Source: Streptomyces sp. RerS4 (GTDB lineage: Bacteria; Actinomycetota; Actinomycetes; Streptomycetales; Streptomycetaceae). Taken from it: a stretch of 64,000 nt of DNA. Positions 41,741 through 48,267 of this stretch are shown here, piece after piece. The stretch lies in assembly GCF_023515955.1 (NCBI RefSeq), contig NZ_CP097322.1, positions 4,822,501 through 4,886,500 of the forward strand, written 5' to 3'. The notes below the pieces were generated by a model. That model was not told the DNA's origin. It saw only the letters and a list, made by a program, of their open reading frames with translations, and did not search any database. A program made the position numbers and the translations under genes. Positions within the stretch are counted from its first letter, which is position 1. Each line of letters opens with the position of its first letter.

Positions 41741-42727
41741 CTACCGCAGGGGACCGTTCGAATCCCGCAGCAGGCCCGCGCCCTCCTTGCCGCCCAGCAC
41801 GCCGAGGATCTCCGCGCAGATGGCGAGCGCGGTCTCCGGAGGGGTCTTCGCCCCCAGGTCCAGCCCGATCGGCCCGTGTACCCGGGCCAGCTCCGAGCCC
41901 GTCACCCCGGCCGCCACGAGCCCCTCGGTGCGCCGCGCGGTGGTCCGCCGCGAGCCGAGCGCACCCACGTACGGAACCCCGAGCGCGAGCGCCAACCGCA
42001 GGGTCGGCACGTCGAAGTCCTCCTGGTGGCTCAGCATCACCAGGCAGGCGGCGTCCCGGTGCGCGCCGAGCACCTTCTCGGCGTCGACGGCGTTGTCCAC
42101 CGTCACCGCCTCCCACCCCAACAGCTCCGCCTGCCGCTCGATCACCTCGGCCAACTCACCGCCGCCCCCGATGACCACGTACGGCGCCGACGGGTACGCC
42201 TCCACCAGCACCAACCCCGAGCCCCCGTACAACGCGTCCCGGCCCGGCCGCCGCGTCCCCAGCAGTTCCCCGGCCCGCCGCGCGGCGTCATCGGCCGCCG
42301 GCTCCCCGGCCCGTACGACCTCGCTCTCGGCGGTGTCCGCGCCCTCCCCGAGCCGCGTCACGAGCGCCACCCCGGCCCCGGCGCCGAGCAACTCCCACCA
42401 CTCGGCCGGAATCGCCGCCAGCGGCTGCAGCAGCACCTCGGCCTGCCCACCGCAGGTGAGCCGCGCGTCCTCGGCCTCGGCCCGCCCCACGGACACCTCG
42501 CACACCCGCGCCGTACGGCCGCCGCCCTCCATGGCCCCGGCCTCGGCGACGAGTTCGGCGTCGAACACCCCGCGGTACAGGGCCCCGAAACACTCCCCAC
42601 CCGCGTCCACGAGCACCGCCCCGGCAGGATCCCGCGGCCCGAACCCGGACTCGGTCACGGGCCGCGCCAGGAACGCCACCCGCCCCTCGGCCACCCACCG
42701 CCGTGCCGTCTCCGCCAGCTCACGCAT
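41741..42727 (-). CDS. XdhC family protein (molybdenum-hydroxylase maturation)
   Basis: The 328-residue protein has an N-terminal XdhC/CoxI domain (GPRDPAGAVLVDAGGECFGAL, CGGQAEVLLQPL) and a C-terminal Rossmann-like XdhC_C domain (YVVIGGGGELAEVI, ACLVMLSHQEDFDVPTL, YVGALGSRRTTARR, GPIGLDLGAKTPPE). XdhC proteins bind and sulfurate the molybdenum cofactor for xanthine dehydrogenase-like enzymes. No such dehydrogenase genes are here, so it serves a distant operon or has a different role. Confidence 0.93.
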   Translation of the reverse strand: MRELAETARRWVAEGRVAFLARPVTESGFGPRDPAGAVLVDAGGECFGALYRGVFDAELVAEAGAMEGGGRTARVCEVSVGRAEAEDARLTCGGQAEVLLQPLAAIPAEWWELLGAGAGVALVTRLGEGADTAESEVVRAGEPAADDAARRAGELLGTRRPGRDALYGGSGLVLVEAYPSAPYVVIGGGGELAEVIERQAELLGWEAVTVDNAVDAEKVLGAHRDAACLVMLSHQEDFDVPTLRLALALGVPYVGALGSRRTTARRTEGLVAAGVTGSELARVHGPIGLDLGAKTPPETALAICAEILGVLGGKEGAGLLRDSNGPLR

Positions 42728-43037: not shown

Positions 43038-44303
43038 ATGAACACCTGGTCGGCCGTGGGGCCCGAACTGCGTCGATTACGCCATCAGGCCGGATACACG
43101 CTCACTGAATTGAGCCTGGCGGTGAACTACTCCAAGGGATATCTGAGCAAAGTGGAGCGGGGGAAGGTGAAGCCGTCGCCGGATCTCGTTCGCCGCGTCG
43201 ACACCTTTCTCCGCGCCAAAGGAGCATTGCGCAGACTGGTCGAACCATCCCCTCGGAACCGAACCGCGGCCGTCCGGGCGAACGACGATGCCGGGCCAGT
43301 GGACCGCCGCTGGGAACTCGATCCGGCCGAGCTGCTCGCCGTCGGCGTCGACACCCTGATCGGCACGGTCCTCAAAAGACCCGGCCACGCGACATCCTCC
43401 GGCGGGACCGCTCTCCTCGACGCCCTCACCACGCAACTCGAACAGTCGCGCGCCCTCGGTCAGTGCTGCGATCCCGCCACCCTGCTCCCCGTACTGGAGG
43501 CCCAGACGCGCTCCGTCGTGGCGCTGCTGTCCACGGGCGCCCCGCGCGACCGCCTTCCGCTCCTGGTCCTCGCCTCGCGGTTCGCGGAGTTCGCGGGCTG
43601 GATGGCTCAGGAGGCGGGCATGGTCCGGGCGGCGCTGTCCTGGACCGCCGACGCCGTGCTGCTGGCCCAGGCCGGAGAAGATCCGCACCTGGCCTCGTAC
43701 GCCCTGGTCCGCAGGGCGCTGGTCACCCTGTACGACGGCGACTCCTCCGGCACGATCGGGCTCGCCGCGCAGGCCCAGACCGACGGGCGACTGCCCCCGA
43801 GGATCCGGGGGTTGGCCGCGCAGCGCGAGGCCCAGGGCCACGCCCTCGCCGGCGACGAACTCGCCTGTATGCGCGCCCTGGAACGGGCCCGCCGGAGCCT
43901 GGCCGCAGCCGAGGGGGACGCCGGGCCCGGCCCCGTGATCGGCACCACGAACCTCGCTGATCCCGCCGCCATGGTCACCGGCTGGTGCCTGTACGACCTC
44001 GGCAGTCCGCGCGAGGCGGCCCAGGTCCTCGACCGGGAATGCCACCGCATTCCCGAGAACGCTCTCAGGACGCGTACGAGATACGGATTCCGGCGGGCGC
44101 TCGCGCATGCCGCGGCGGGGGAAGTCGAACATTCCTGCGCCATTGCCCAGGGCCTGCTCGACATGAGTGTGGCCACCCCGTCCGCGACGGTTCGCTCCGA
44201 CATCCGACGTCTGTCCGACGAACTCGGTCGCTATCGCGTCAACCGCGCCGTCCGCGAATTGCAACCCGCCTTGGCCTGGGCTCTCAAACCGGCCCTCATC
44301 TGA
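43038..44303 (+). CDS. XRE-type helix-turn-helix regulator with helical repeat C-terminus
   Basis: The 421-residue protein has an N-terminal XRE HTH (LRRLRHQAGYTLTELS, YSKGYLSKVERGKVKPSPDLV) followed by a long all-helical, TPR-like region (AREAQGHALAGDELACMRALERA, MVTGWCLYDLGSPREAAQVLDREC). This architecture occurs in Streptomyces regulators next to small accessory operons. It precedes the TIR gene by 106 bp on the same strand and may sense a signal for that operon. ATG 43038 has GGGAG upstream. Codon bias is slightly weaker at its 5' end. Confidence 0.9.
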   Translation: MNTWSAVGPELRRLRHQAGYTLTELSLAVNYSKGYLSKVERGKVKPSPDLVRRVDTFLRAKGALRRLVEPSPRNRTAAVRANDDAGPVDRRWELDPAELLAVGVDTLIGTVLKRPGHATSSGGTALLDALTTQLEQSRALGQCCDPATLLPVLEAQTRSVVALLSTGAPRDRLPLLVLASRFAEFAGWMAQEAGMVRAALSWTADAVLLAQAGEDPHLASYALVRRALVTLYDGDSSGTIGLAAQAQTDGRLPPRIRGLAAQREAQGHALAGDELACMRALERARRSLAAAEGDAGPGPVIGTTNLADPAAMVTGWCLYDLGSPREAAQVLDRECHRIPENALRTRTRYGFRRALAHAAAGEVEHSCAIAQGLLDMSVATPSATVRSDIRRLSDELGRYRVNRAVRELQPALAWALKPALI

Positions 44304-44409
44304 ACTTCTCCACCCTTCACACCCGCCCAAGCCGGCCCGCGCCCATAAGCGTGCCGTCTTCATGAGCGTCGTCCTTACGCGTGCTTTCCCGCCAGGAGAG
44401 GAATCCGCC

Positions 44410-45237
44410 ATGCCCGAAATCTTCGTCAACTACCGCACCGGCGACGAGGAAGCCACCGCCACCCTCATCGAACGAGAGCTCTCCCGCCGGTTCGGGGACG
44501 ACCGCGTCTTCCGTGCGAGCAAGTCGATCCGCCCCGGACAGGCCTTCCCTCGGGAACTCCTCACGGCGGTGCGCCGCAGCAGCGTCCTGCTCGCCGTGAT
44601 CGGCGAGAAGTGGGTCACGGCCCCGGGTCGGTCCGGACGTCCGGCCCTCGAAGACCCGCAGGACTGGACGCGCGTCGAGATCCGGGAGGCGATCGAATGC
44701 GGCGCGCACGTCGTCCCCGTACTGGTGGGCCGCTCCACCCGTCTCGAACGCGGCATGCTGCCAGCCGAGTTGGCGGAGCTGGCCGACCACCAGTACCGCC
44801 GGTTCGACCACCGCAACGCCGAGAGCGATCTGAGGCGGCTCGGTGACGACCTGGCCGAGCTGGTCCCCCGACTCGCCGGGGCCGACCGTACGCCCCCGCA
44901 GGCCGGCACCGACACGGACGCCGATCCCACGGGCGCCACCCGCATGCGGGTCCGCGACATCCGCCACGAACAGCGCGGAGGCATCGGCTTCCTCAACGGC
45001 AACCTCGACAGCTTCATCAGCGAACCGAACGGCCCGATCCACACCGGCTCCGGAGCCCAGTACAACGGCCCCTCCTTCAACGGCGAGGGGATGGGCGTGA
45101 ACTTCGTGGCCGGCGACAACTCGGGCGGCATGCGCCAGTACGTCGAAAGCGCCGACGACCACCGCACCCCGCGCAACCGGGACCACGACCGTGACCGCGA
45201 CCACGACCGCGCCGAGCGCCGCCGGGACGAGGCGTGA
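44410..45237 (+). CDS. TIR-domain protein with C-terminal HTGSG motif tail
   Basis: The 275-residue protein starts with a TIR domain (PEIFVNYRTGDEE, VLLAVIGEKWVTA, WTRVEIREAIECG with W86 and candidate NADase Glu90, VVPVLVGRS). A linker follows, then a Gly/Asn-rich segment near residues 190-240 (GGIGFLNGNLDS, GPIHTGSGAQYNG, GVNFVAGDNSGG) and a charged RDHDRDRD tail. Bacterial TIR domains commonly cleave NAD+ or make cyclic ADP-ribose signals in phage defence. The start follows AGGAGAGGA. The stop overlaps the next start, so it is the first gene of a three-gene coupled operon. Function in defence is inference. Confidence 0.88.
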   Translation: MPEIFVNYRTGDEEATATLIERELSRRFGDDRVFRASKSIRPGQAFPRELLTAVRRSSVLLAVIGEKWVTAPGRSGRPALEDPQDWTRVEIREAIECGAHVVPVLVGRSTRLERGMLPAELAELADHQYRRFDHRNAESDLRRLGDDLAELVPRLAGADRTPPQAGTDTDADPTGATRMRVRDIRHEQRGGIGFLNGNLDSFISEPNGPIHTGSGAQYNGPSFNGEGMGVNFVAGDNSGGMRQYVESADDHRTPRNRDHDRDRDHDRAERRRDEA

Positions 45238-47195
45238 TGACGGAAGACGGTTCCGAAGACGCCACCGAGGGCAGGGCCGGCCCGACGCACACCGGCTCCG
45301 GGCCTCAGACCAACAACTACTCCTTCCACGCCGCCCCGCACCGGCAGCGGCCGGACCCGCTGTCCATCGCCCGCGAGCGGCGCAGGGATCTGCGCCGGCG
45401 CTTCGTCCGCCCGCCCCGCTTCGGTGAAGCGGCCCACCGGATCGCGGAGCCGGGAGCGGTCGTCCTGCTCCGGGGGTCGCCGGGCACCGGGCGCCACGCC
45501 GCGGCGACCGTACTCCTGCACGAGGCGCCCGACCAGGTCTCCGGTCCACAGGGGCGGTTCGAGGAACTCACGGTGGCGCGGCCTGATGACACCCTGGACG
45601 CCGGCCCTCGCGACCGCTTCCTTCTCAACCTCTCCGCTGTCTCCTCCGCCGACTACATCGAGGCACAGCAATCCCTCGCCCTGTACCGGTCGGCCGTCGA
45701 AGAGGCCGGGGCCCGGCTGGCCGTCGTCCTCCCGTCGGGCCTGGACCACCTCCTGGATCCGCAGTTCGAGCCCCTCGTCGTACTCCTGGAACGGCCCCAC
45801 GGTCCCGCGGTCGTGCGACGCTCCCTGCGCCTGGCGGGCATCCCCTTCGAGGACGAGGACCTGCGTACCGAGGCACTGACCCGGTTCTTCGCCGACGATC
45901 CGATGCGTGAGCTGGCCCGCTTCTGCGCGACCGTCGATCGCGCCCGCGCCGGTGGCCGCCACGGAAACGCGTTCCGCGCATGGGCCGACGAAGCCCTCGG
46001 CGCCGTCACCCACCGAGCGGCCGAGGCAGCCCAGCAGATCAAGGAGGTGAGGTCCGCCGAGGGCCGCGCCCTCCTCCTCAGCACCGCGATGCTGCACGGC
46101 TTCCCGGCGGACACGGTCTTCCACAGCCGAAGCAGGCTGCTGCGGGCGCTGGGACACCGCCCCGAGGACGACGGAACGGACGCGGCCCTCTTCGTACGCG
46201 ACGACCTGCTCGACGAGCTGACACGACTGCGCATCAGCAGGGACGCACGGGGGCTGGTCACCTTCGACCACCTGGAATACGACGCGGCGATCCGCCGCCA
46301 CTTCTGGCTGCACTTCCCCGACCTGCGTCGGACCTTCGGAACCTGGGTGGAGGACGTCCTCGCGCAGGGCGACGTCACCGACACGGACCAGCAGGCACTG
46401 ACCGAGCGGTTCGTCGAACGGATCCTCGATTCCGGGGGGCCCGCCGAGATCTTCGACCTCGTACGGCGCTGGACCGACAGCGACTCGCCCCGCCCCCTGC
46501 ACGCGCCGGCCGCGACCGCGCTCGAAGTGGCTCTCGCCGACGAACGCCACGTCAGAAAGGTCTTGGACCAGATCCGGACCTGGTCACGGGAACCCACTCT
46601 CCCCGACGGTCTGCTGCGCGCGCTCACCGACGTCTGCCGGGACCCGATGTCCGCGACCCACCCGTACCACGCGGTCGTCCGACTCCATCACCTGGCACAT
46701 CACCCCGCGGGCGGGAGTGCGCGCGAGGCGCTCTTCGCCCTCGTGGCGAGTGACCCGAGGCTCCTGCGCTACCTGCACCGGCGCATCGCGGCCTACCTCG
46801 GCCCCCGTTCGCCGGGCAACATCGCCCTCCTCCTCGACCTCTACGAGGACGCGGTGCTGCCAGCCGACCTGCCCTGGCCGGACCTGGCCAAGGTCTGGCG
46901 CGCCGCGATGGACTTCAGTGACCGGCACGACTGGGCCCCGCTCGTGCACCGCTGGCTCAGCGCCGTCCTGCGGATACCCGAAGAACGGCGCGAGGCGGCC
47001 CTCGGCGTTCTGGTCGACGCCGTCGCGGGCAGCGATCGGCACGGCAACCAGCTGTACACCTCCACATGCCACTGGGCGGCCGGCCGGCCGGAGCGCACCG
47101 CGACCGCGACGTGGCTGCGCCACGGCATCGACGTCGCCCAAGGACTCGTCCCGGACGAGGCCGTCCCCTCGCCCGAGTCGGAAGGAGTGCGATGA
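45237..47195 (+). CDS. Unrecognised 652-aa protein with degenerate P-loop and HTGSG motif
   Basis: The N-terminus has GPTHTGSGPQTNNYSF (H18-G22), the same short motif as in the preceding TIR protein. A nucleotide-binding-like start follows (GAVVLLRGSPGTGRHAAATV, residues 73-92). The Walker A lysine and Ser/Thr are replaced by Arg85? and His (GSPGTGRH, 80-87), and no clear Walker B is seen. The rest is helical (ALTRFFADDPMRELARF, HFWLHFPDLRRTFGTWVEDVL) and could be a winged-helix/repeat region of a STAND-like or pseudo-ATPase protein. It is not a known family to me. ATG 45237 is preferred over GTG 45234 for ribosome-site spacing. Confidence 0.8.
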   Translation: MTEDGSEDATEGRAGPTHTGSGPQTNNYSFHAAPHRQRPDPLSIARERRRDLRRRFVRPPRFGEAAHRIAEPGAVVLLRGSPGTGRHAAATVLLHEAPDQVSGPQGRFEELTVARPDDTLDAGPRDRFLLNLSAVSSADYIEAQQSLALYRSAVEEAGARLAVVLPSGLDHLLDPQFEPLVVLLERPHGPAVVRRSLRLAGIPFEDEDLRTEALTRFFADDPMRELARFCATVDRARAGGRHGNAFRAWADEALGAVTHRAAEAAQQIKEVRSAEGRALLLSTAMLHGFPADTVFHSRSRLLRALGHRPEDDGTDAALFVRDDLLDELTRLRISRDARGLVTFDHLEYDAAIRRHFWLHFPDLRRTFGTWVEDVLAQGDVTDTDQQALTERFVERILDSGGPAEIFDLVRRWTDSDSPRPLHAPAATALEVALADERHVRKVLDQIRTWSREPTLPDGLLRALTDVCRDPMSATHPYHAVVRLHHLAHHPAGGSAREALFALVASDPRLLRYLHRRIAAYLGPRSPGNIALLLDLYEDAVLPADLPWPDLAKVWRAAMDFSDRHDWAPLVHRWLSAVLRIPEERREAALGVLVDAVAGSDRHGNQLYTSTCHWAAGRPERTATATWLRHGIDVAQGLVPDEAVPSPESEGVR

Positions 47196-48121
47196 GCACG
47201 TACCTGCCGTGGATCTTCCTGGCGGTGACGCTGGGGGCGGCGGTGGCACTGATCCTGGTGAAGCGCGCGGAACGCGCCCGGCTGCGTGCCCGCGTCCACC
47301 ATCAGCAGTCCACCGAGACGGCGTCCGAACCCCAGCAGCCCGCCGAGCCTCCTTTCCAGGAGATCCACTTGGAGCGGGTCGCCGTCCCCAGCTCCCTGCC
47401 CGACTACGACTTCCTCTTCTCGGCGTCCGTCTGGTGGCGCCCCGCCGGTACCCAGGGCACGGTGCCGCACGGCAACCGTTCCGGCCTCGCCGCGGCCCAT
47501 GTGATCAGGCGCGCCCAGGAGTTCACGCGCAACGAACGTCCCGAACGCCACGGGGCCGTCCAGTACCTCCTGGAGGAAGCCCTCGGCACCCACACCCTGG
47601 ACGACACGGCCACCCTGGTCGTGATGGCCACGGACGTCACCCTGGCCTTGGTCCCCGAGGACCGCGACCGACTCCGCAAACTGGCGGGCCTGCGCAAGGA
47701 AGAGGACACCTGGGAGCAGGAGCGCCAGTACGAGCGCAGTCGACGCAAGTACCTGGCCGACGAGGTACTCCAGACCCCGGGCAGCGCGGCGGTGTGGTGG
47801 CTCTCGCGGCACGAGGAAGACATCGAGCGCGCCGTGGAACTCCTCGGCCCCTTCGCACAGCTCTCGGCGGCGTCGAACAACACCGAGGTGGCCACCCTCT
47901 TCCGACACCTGGTCGAACGACCGTCGACCCCGACTGAGGAGCCCACCGTGGACGTCCTCACCTGTGTGACGGCCCTCCTGGACCTCCTCGACCTGTCCCC
48001 CGACTCCCCGGACGGAGAGGCCTTCCTCCTCCGCCTCGAAGCCTGGCTCGACTCGGTCGACCGCTCAGAAGAAGCCGCCCGCCTCCGCGCCCACTTCCTC
48101 CCACCCACCCCCGAGGAGTAG
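47192..48121 (+). CDS. Membrane-anchored hypothetical protein, third gene of the TIR operon
   Basis: The 309-residue protein has a single N-terminal transmembrane helix (YLPWIFLAVTLGAAVALILV, residues 4-23) and a basic cytoplasmic-looking stop (KRAERARLRARV). A soluble helical region follows (PSSLPDYDFLFSASVWWRP, RLRKLAGLRKEEDTWEQERQ coiled-coil-like, FLLRLEAWLDSVDRSEEAAR). Its ATG overlaps the preceding stop (ATGA) and AAGGAG lies upstream. Band-7/SPFH-like features (DVTLALVPEDRDRL) are only suggestive. It could place the operon products at the membrane, consistent with a membrane-disrupting or sensing role; this is inference. Confidence 0.85.
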   Translation: MSTYLPWIFLAVTLGAAVALILVKRAERARLRARVHHQQSTETASEPQQPAEPPFQEIHLERVAVPSSLPDYDFLFSASVWWRPAGTQGTVPHGNRSGLAAAHVIRRAQEFTRNERPERHGAVQYLLEEALGTHTLDDTATLVVMATDVTLALVPEDRDRLRKLAGLRKEEDTWEQERQYERSRRKYLADEVLQTPGSAAVWWLSRHEEDIERAVELLGPFAQLSAASNNTEVATLFRHLVERPSTPTEEPTVDVLTCVTALLDLLDLSPDSPDGEAFLLRLEAWLDSVDRSEEAARLRAHFLPPTPEE

Positions 48122-48138
48122 CCGCCCGCACATACGCG

Positions 48139-48177
48139 AAGACCCCGTCTCAGCGAACTCGCTGATGGCGGGGTCTT
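48139..48177. terminator. Hairpin between the TIR operon and tRNA-Arg
   Basis: AAGACCCCG (48139-48147) pairs with CGGGGTCTT (48169-48177), and an inner TCAGCG/CGCTGA adds to the stem. A second perfect 7-bp hairpin (GCACTTC/GAAGTGC, 48181-48198) abuts the tRNA 3' end. Together they likely end transcription from both sides. Confidence 0.7.
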
Positions 48178-48195
48178 TGGGCACTTCATGCGAAG

Positions 48196-48267
48196 TGCCC
48201 CCGGCAGGATTCGAACCTGCGCACACGGCTCCGGAGGCCGTTGCTCTATCCCCTGAGCTACGGGGGC
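48196..48267 (-). tRNA. tRNA-Arg (anticodon CCG)
   Basis: The minus strand folds as a cloverleaf. The 7-bp acceptor is GCCCCCG/CGGGGGC with discriminator A, the D arm is GCTC/GAGC, and the anticodon stem ACGGC/GCCGT holds loop CTCCGGA (anticodon CCG). The T arm is GCAGG/CCTGC with TTCGAAT. Length is 72 nt; the 3' CCA is not encoded. On the minus strand TAGTGT (48302-48297), about 30 bp upstream, could be its -10. Confidence 0.97.

Follow-up and report, generated by a model that had tools for sequence, protein, structure and literature searches.

The TIR-domain effector and the degenerate STAND-like nucleoside triphosphatase (NTPase) encoded side by side in a four-gene cassette of Streptomyces sp. 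RerS4 carry the same short motif, which co-varies in the two proteins across divergent relatives of the cassette. The cassette lies on the plus strand of the window, the whole 64,000-nucleotide stretch analysed here (contig NZ_CP097322.1, positions 4,822,501 to 4,886,500), and encodes a helix-turn-helix (HTH) and TPR regulator, the TIR protein, a P-loop-like protein and a protein with one transmembrane (TM) segment (genes 1 to 4, in this order). The presence of the same tag on the enzyme and on the NTPase suggests that these partners meet by a prion-like handshake, as in immune cell death of animals and fungi. The module is real, conserved and apparently unnamed. We tentatively propose, at somewhat less than even confidence, that it belongs to a large, unnamed modular immune family in Streptomyces and its order, which would combine a TIR or cyclase-like effector, a degenerate STAND protein, an SPFH scaffold and a matched regulator, and in which cassette-specific prion-like tag pairs would keep many parallel signalosomes apart.

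A motif common to the effector and the NTPase

The features of the cassette are listed below with their coordinates in the window.

43038..44303, plus strand: gene 1, NsdA-family regulator, HTH_31 and TPR-like (Pfam HTH_31 E=1.8e-13; NCBIfam NF053720 E=7.8e-50)
44410..45237, plus strand: gene 2, TIR-domain effector with a glycine/asparagine-rich C-terminal tail (TIR_2 E=6e-10; SARM1 TIR profile match E=5e-13)
44665..44679, plus strand: WxxxE motif in the TIR domain (W86, E90) with the candidate catalytic glutamate (47/47 invariant; aligned with SARM1 DWVHKEI)
45031..45081, plus strand: effector copy of the motif, GPIHTGSGAQYNGPSFN, TIR protein residues 208-224 (local alignment to the NTPase N-terminus, shuffle p=0.002; DNA repeat)
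45237..47195, plus strand: gene 3, STAND-like NTPase (nSTAND3-related) with winged-helix-like region, alpha-solenoid and degenerate P-loop (Pfam matches of homologues, AlphaFold2 model, Foldseek)
45279..45329, plus strand: receptor copy of the motif, GPTHTGSGPQTNNYSFH, NTPase residues 15-31 (local alignment; low-confidence N-terminus in the AlphaFold2 model)
45474..45497, plus strand: degenerate Walker A GSPGTGRH, lysine replaced by arginine (G83, G85 and R86 invariant in 43/43)
47192..48121, plus strand: gene 4, putative divergent SPFH-like (prohibitin/stomatin-type) single-TM membrane protein (AlphaFold2, Foldseek, hhalign to family A7)
47357..47767, plus strand: predicted SPFH-like domain and following long helix, residues 56-192 (secondary structure of the model, Foldseek)

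The motif is glycine/asparagine-rich in both genes and reads GPIHTGSGAQYN in the tail of the TIR protein and GPTHTGSGPQTN at the N-terminus of the NTPase. It is short (12-25 residues) and rich in glycine, asparagine, histidine and threonine. In the DNA, the two copies are visible as a repeat 248 bp apart (45030-45085 and 45278-45333, 77%). The TIR tail resembled the N-terminus of the NTPase in 35 of the 43 TIR cassettes (shuffle p<=0.01), and the motif scores within these cassettes averaged 57 for partners of the same locus versus 43 across loci.

Co-variation was assessed with 5000 permutations in 39 cassettes with less than 55% NTPase identity, including cassettes with the cyclase-type effector described below. 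In 17 of these 39 cassettes, the effector tail matched the NTPase of its own cassette best, and in 26 this NTPase ranked within the top three; under permutation, the own partner came first in 1 cassette on average and in 6 at most. The mean Z score was 6.1 for the own partner versus 1.0 for other partners. Identical matched residues used the same codon in 60% of cases, compared with 54% expected from codon use, which indicates that the match is maintained at the protein level and is not a fresh DNA duplication. In the AlphaFold2 model, the motif region of the NTPase has low confidence, as expected of a disordered segment, and this N-terminal segment is probably disordered. An earlier reading of the sequence alone (the sequence-only reading) had suggested from gene order and coupling that the encoded proteins form a complex, and this proposal is supported by the co-varying motif.

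Properties of the encoded proteins

Both gene overlaps named in the sequence-only reading were found to be exact: the ATG of gene 3 at 45237 has its A in common with the TGA of gene 2 (45235-45237), and gene 4 starts with an ATG at 47192 that overlaps the TGA of gene 3 (47193-47195). The HTH-TPR regulator that it had placed ahead of the three genes matched the NCBIfam model NsdA_fam_reg with 170.6 bits (cut-off 75). Its assignment of a TIR domain with W86 and E90 agrees with the Pfam TIR_2 match, which extended to all 47 TIR homologues, and with the invariance of both residues in all of them. The P-loop-like loop that it had noticed in the second of the three proteins is genuine but degenerate (GSPGTGR, lysine to arginine in 43/43), and the one TM segment that it had named in the third was predicted as an N-terminal helix.

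The profile of the TIR family matched the SARM1 NADase structures (E=5e-13), with the DWxxxE segment aligned to the catalytic segment of SARM1. Judged by these sequence comparisons, gene 2 is a TIR effector of the predicted SARM1 NADase type. NADase activity, a prediction for gene 2, is expected from what is established on TIR enzymes. PADLOC models gave no match to genes 2-4 of the window; among the homologues, the ThsB model weakly matched 8 of the 47 TIR proteins (best E=6.8e-6) and the PDC-S73 model weakly matched 2 of the 43 NTPases.

Pfam nSTAND3 (PF20720) matched 37 of the 43 NTPase homologues (best 1.6e-7); the window copy taken alone matched no Pfam family. The AlphaFold2 model of the NTPase (pLDDT 87, pTM 0.85) comprises a P-loop domain, a winged-helix-like small beta hairpin with helices, and an alpha-solenoid. 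Foldseek searches with this model retrieved AAA+/STAND folds, including the STAND-TPR protein 6mfv, CED-4, SAMD9 and ORC. The Walker A lysine is replaced by arginine in all 43 homologues, with G83, G85 and R86 invariant. At the Walker B residue 131 (45627-45629), the window copy has asparagine; 41 of the 43 homologues have aspartate. The arginine in Walker A together with the asparagine in Walker B of the window copy indicates a STAND-like protein that is probably not an active ATPase. These residues make a degenerate STAND protein the best description of the gene 3 product, which likely binds nucleotide weakly or without hydrolysis.

The AlphaFold2 model of gene 4 (pLDDT 88) runs from a TM helix through two strands and two helices to a further strand and a long helix. 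The best Protein Data Bank folds retrieved by Foldseek were PHB1/2, vault, HflK/C and stomatin (best E=1.3e-4, prob 1.00), all of which have SPFH domains; the helix angles differ, and the full-length TM-scores were accordingly low. None of the family models, Pfam Band_7 included, matched gene 4 directly. However, hhalign linked gene 4 to the cognate family A7, which occupies the same position in the sister cassettes (E=4.4e-6), and 4 of the 13 members of A7 matched Pfam Band_7 (best 1.3e-4). We consider it very likely that gene 4 is SPFH-like.

Distribution, sister cassettes and genomic site

Of 199 genomes of the genus, 50 contained relatives of the P-loop protein at E<=1e-3, and 53 contained relatives of the TM protein, for which the single gene 4 protein served as query. 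The sample analysed further comprised 46 homologous loci from 44 genomes, about one quarter of the Streptomyces genomes sampled. The TIR gene lay directly upstream of the NTPase gene in all 46 loci, the TM gene directly downstream in 44, and an HTH gene two genes upstream of the NTPase gene (position -2) in 43. The sequence-only reading had called for a co-occurrence check on three genes; in genomes of the genus, all four genes, the regulator included, were found in the same order in 42 of the 46 loci, so the arrangement is not due to chance. Among the four incomplete loci, the NTPase gene is shortened in L052 and L054, and a contig end truncates L075. An overlap of 4 bp was present between the TIR and NTPase genes in 40 of 46 loci and between the NTPase and SPFH-like genes in 31 of 44. 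The flanking genes (n=89) fell into 60 families in many different neighbourhoods, showing that the linkage is more than common surroundings and that the cassette is kept as a unit. The sequence-only reading had also proposed an undescribed defence or stress-signalling module. The near-complete co-occurrence, the SARM1-type TIR protein and the absence of PADLOC matches to genes 2-4 of the window, with only weak ones among homologues, strongly support a conserved and apparently unnamed module of TIR, NTPase and membrane protein, and a defence or stress role is what we infer for it.

Up to three copies of the cassette occur in one genome (G165). In two remnants (L087, L089), an in-frame fusion joins the beginning of the HTH gene to the last part of the SPFH-like gene; cassettes are thus lost by internal deletion. 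A search of 296 genomes of the phylum revealed no cassette-type NTPase beyond the genus; the TIR cassette also occurs in another family of the same order (L095, L096, L099). No paralogue was found in the window's own genome. In one subgroup (L058, L059, L060, L064, L069, L070, L076), a related small gene of about 145-150 residues follows the SPFH-like gene and is a possible fifth cassette gene.

In the wide sense, relatives of the NTPase were present in 99 of 148 genomes of the order (about two thirds, E<=1e-6, TIR type included), mostly in cassettes whose effector is a class III cyclase-like protein. These sister loci (L078, L079, L082, L084-L086, L094-L153) encode a Crp-type regulator, a cyclase-like effector, a STAND-like NTPase and an SPFH-like protein, and they often add a protein of about 170 residues with 2-3 predicted TM segments. 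The profile of the cyclase-like effector matched the cyclase 3mr7 of the Protein Data Bank (E=5e-4), without a Pfam match; the second metal-binding aspartate was invariant and the first was present in 6 of 7 proteins. The regulator of L078, which was checked by a model, is Crp-like with a domain for binding cyclic nucleotide monophosphates. The gene downstream of the NTPase in the sister cassettes is often SPFH-like, and an SPFH-like gene accompanies both effector types. The tag sequence differs in the cyclase-type cassettes and yet again matches the own partner: effector tail and NTPase start read FSHTGEHGIQAYN and FSHSGEHGIQAYN in L078, GSLVGGDQHGVSGGDVTGDVVLGGS and GSLVGGDQHGVSGGQVTGDVILGGS in L139, and QKAKAKGRARVVQVGGN and QRAKASGHAHVTQVAGD in L082. 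In the last locus, the motifs of the two proteins (L082:8137-8895 and L082:6116-8137, both minus strand) hold VVQVGGN and VTQVAGD, reminiscent of the RHIM core VQVG. Other loci (L081:8572-9111, minus strand; L107, L113, L114, L127) have, upstream of the NTPase, a protein of 165-180 residues that is neither TIR nor cyclase-like and may be a third type of effector or partner.

In the window, the cassette is flanked by an XdhC-family gene (41741-42727, minus strand) on one side and by a tRNA-Arg gene, followed by a response regulator gene, argS and lysA, on the other. Two features lie at this second border.

48137..48179, no strand assigned: hairpin between operon and tRNA (-34.6 kcal/mol, z=-7.2)
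48195..48267, minus strand: tRNA-Arg (CCG), with the cassette on its 3' side (ARAGORN)

The hairpin is likely the transcription terminator of the operon; the terminator scan made no call at it, and its T-run is short. The neighbour of tRNA-Arg(CCG) beside argS-lysA differs in nearly every relative (window, L158-L173); the genes at this place encode, among others, two phage-type integrases, a transposase, Ku and a CdiI-type immunity protein. This tRNA is a probable integration site. No copy of the tRNA-Arg 3' end that could serve as an att site was found on the far side of the cassette. The G+C content at codon position 3 is 0.83-0.90 in the cassette genes, below that of lysA, hom and thrC (0.96-0.97). 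Together, the variable neighbours and the lower G+C content point to acquisition at a variable site, which is not a clear or classical defence island. In G012, the closest relative that has the XdhC flank, the cassette's place is taken by genes for a YgjP-like metallopeptidase and a type I restriction HsdR protein (L077:2516-6646, minus strand). G012 was rejected as an empty site, since argS-lysA lies elsewhere in that genome and no clean empty site is therefore given.

Proposed mechanism, alternatives and known systems

From the analysis as a whole, we give an even chance to the most probable reading, namely that the cassette is a membrane-anchored suicide signalosome that depletes NAD+ in response to an invader or stress. 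The STAND protein would sense the trigger via its alpha-solenoid and would be gathered at the membrane by an SPFH ring or microdomain, exposing and clustering its N-terminal motif. The clustered motif would then template or capture the matching TIR tail, probably as a short cross-beta (amyloid-like) assembly, whereupon the TIR domains may self-associate and degrade NAD+. The loss of NAD+ would kill or arrest the cell and keep the infection from spreading along the hypha. The matching motif would act as a pairing tag that separates the pathway from those of sister cassettes, and operon expression is probably under the control of the HTH protein. We infer the sensing, clustering, templating and killing steps from the computational data.

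Several observations weigh against this signalosome. The motif match was not significant in 8 of the 43 TIR cassettes (about one fifth); in L032 and L033 at least, the start was called too late, which accounts for the missing match, and the groups L057/L058/L060 and L065/L071/L073 look truly diverged in the motif. The window's own pair is only moderate (Z 3.8, rank 9 of 39). The SPFH assignment is based on the fold and an intermediate family, and gene 4 gave no hhalign match to three Band_7 proteins encoded in the genome. Moreover, the cassette was absent from phages and nearly absent from plasmids, and it is confined to one order among the genomes searched, which would also fit a developmental role. 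The same complex and tag pairing might then have a developmental or stress output, with NAD+ turnover or a cyclic ADP-ribose-type messenger feeding the NsdA-type regulator. We regard this as rather unlikely, although the regulator belongs to the NsdA family, whose namesakes act on differentiation and antibiotic output in Streptomyces, the cyclase-like protein of the sister cassettes looks with its Crp-type regulator like a messenger circuit, and the TIR type was seen only in the window's order among the genomes searched. The patchy presence in about a quarter of the genus, the internal deletions in L087 and L089, the up to three copies in G165 and the shifting neighbourhoods fit defence better than development.

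The shared motif could also be a plain docking peptide, by which, for example, both proteins bind the SPFH ring without any amyloid-like assembly. Its shortness and its composition are compatible with this, and the SPFH-like gene found with both effector types would be a common third partner able to select like tags. A common docking site, however, would favour one tag everywhere, whereas the tags vary by cassette and match within the pair; in addition, paired short motifs at the effector C-terminus and the N-terminus of a NOD-like receptor (NLR) are the described amyloid layout (PMC7889193; PMC12261475). We consider docking a minority possibility. That the motif is a functionless by-product of local duplication or gene conversion, as the DNA repeat 248 bp apart might suggest, is highly improbable: the synonymous codons of matched residues agree hardly above the prediction from codon use (0.60 vs 0.54), and the matches persist across cassettes below 55% identity.

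In animal necroptosis and fungal incompatibility, templating of a short amyloid motif carries the death signal from an NLR receptor to the executioner; the comparable bacterial systems are for the most part predicted. The cassette is widespread in genetically tractable bacteria, its enzymatic effector is recognisable and loss of NAD+ is easily measured. Its matched tags lend themselves to deletion or exchange, and nature offers dozens of variants, some with another effector. Motif templating by bacterial NLR-like proteins and its specificity are thereby directly testable. The SPFH-like partner would tie such a signalosome to membrane microdomains, beside a prohibitin-type scaffold.

No named system of the same composition was found in the open-access literature searched. 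SARM1 and the prokaryotic TIR NADases (Thoeris ThsB, SpbK and others) share with gene 2 the TIR fold and the WxxxE catalytic glutamate; unlike Thoeris, the conserved cassette lacks ThsA, and the ThsB model touches only 8 of the 47 TIR members. Pycsar consists of a cyclase plus an effector. The sister cassettes may resemble it in their class III cyclase-like protein, which in them is tied to STAND and SPFH-like proteins. In the effector-associated-domain principle, a sensor NTPase and an effector carry the same adaptor, as is also discussed for inactive-STAND ternary systems (Kaur et al. 2020, PMC7159879; 2021, PMC8195603). Common to these systems and the cassette are the shared adaptor, inactive STAND modules, TIR and cyclase effectors and occurrence in multicellular bacteria. 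In the cassette, however, a short motif that is probably disordered serves as the adaptor, and the fourth place goes to an SPFH-like protein, whereas MoxR, vWA and VMAP are not part of the conserved four-gene order (no model search for them was made).

Bacterial amyloid (BASS) NLR signalosomes were reportedly described by Dyrka et al. in 2020 and are reviewed in PMC7889193. The proposal of amyloid NLR signalosomes is based on an arrangement in filamentous bacteria in which overlapping genes encode an effector and a receptor-like protein bearing one and the same short motif (PMC7889193; PMC8086366; PMC12261475). In a minority of cases, BASS motifs occur on TIR effectors (PMC7889193). The cassette shares with them the adjacent or overlapping genes, the motif at the effector C-terminus and the NLR N-terminus, and the occurrence in filamentous actinobacteria; this likeness is one of layout. 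In contrast to BASS signalosomes, the cassette comprises a degenerate P-loop NTPase, an SPFH-like gene and a dedicated regulator, its effector can be cyclase-like, and its tag diversifies by cassette.
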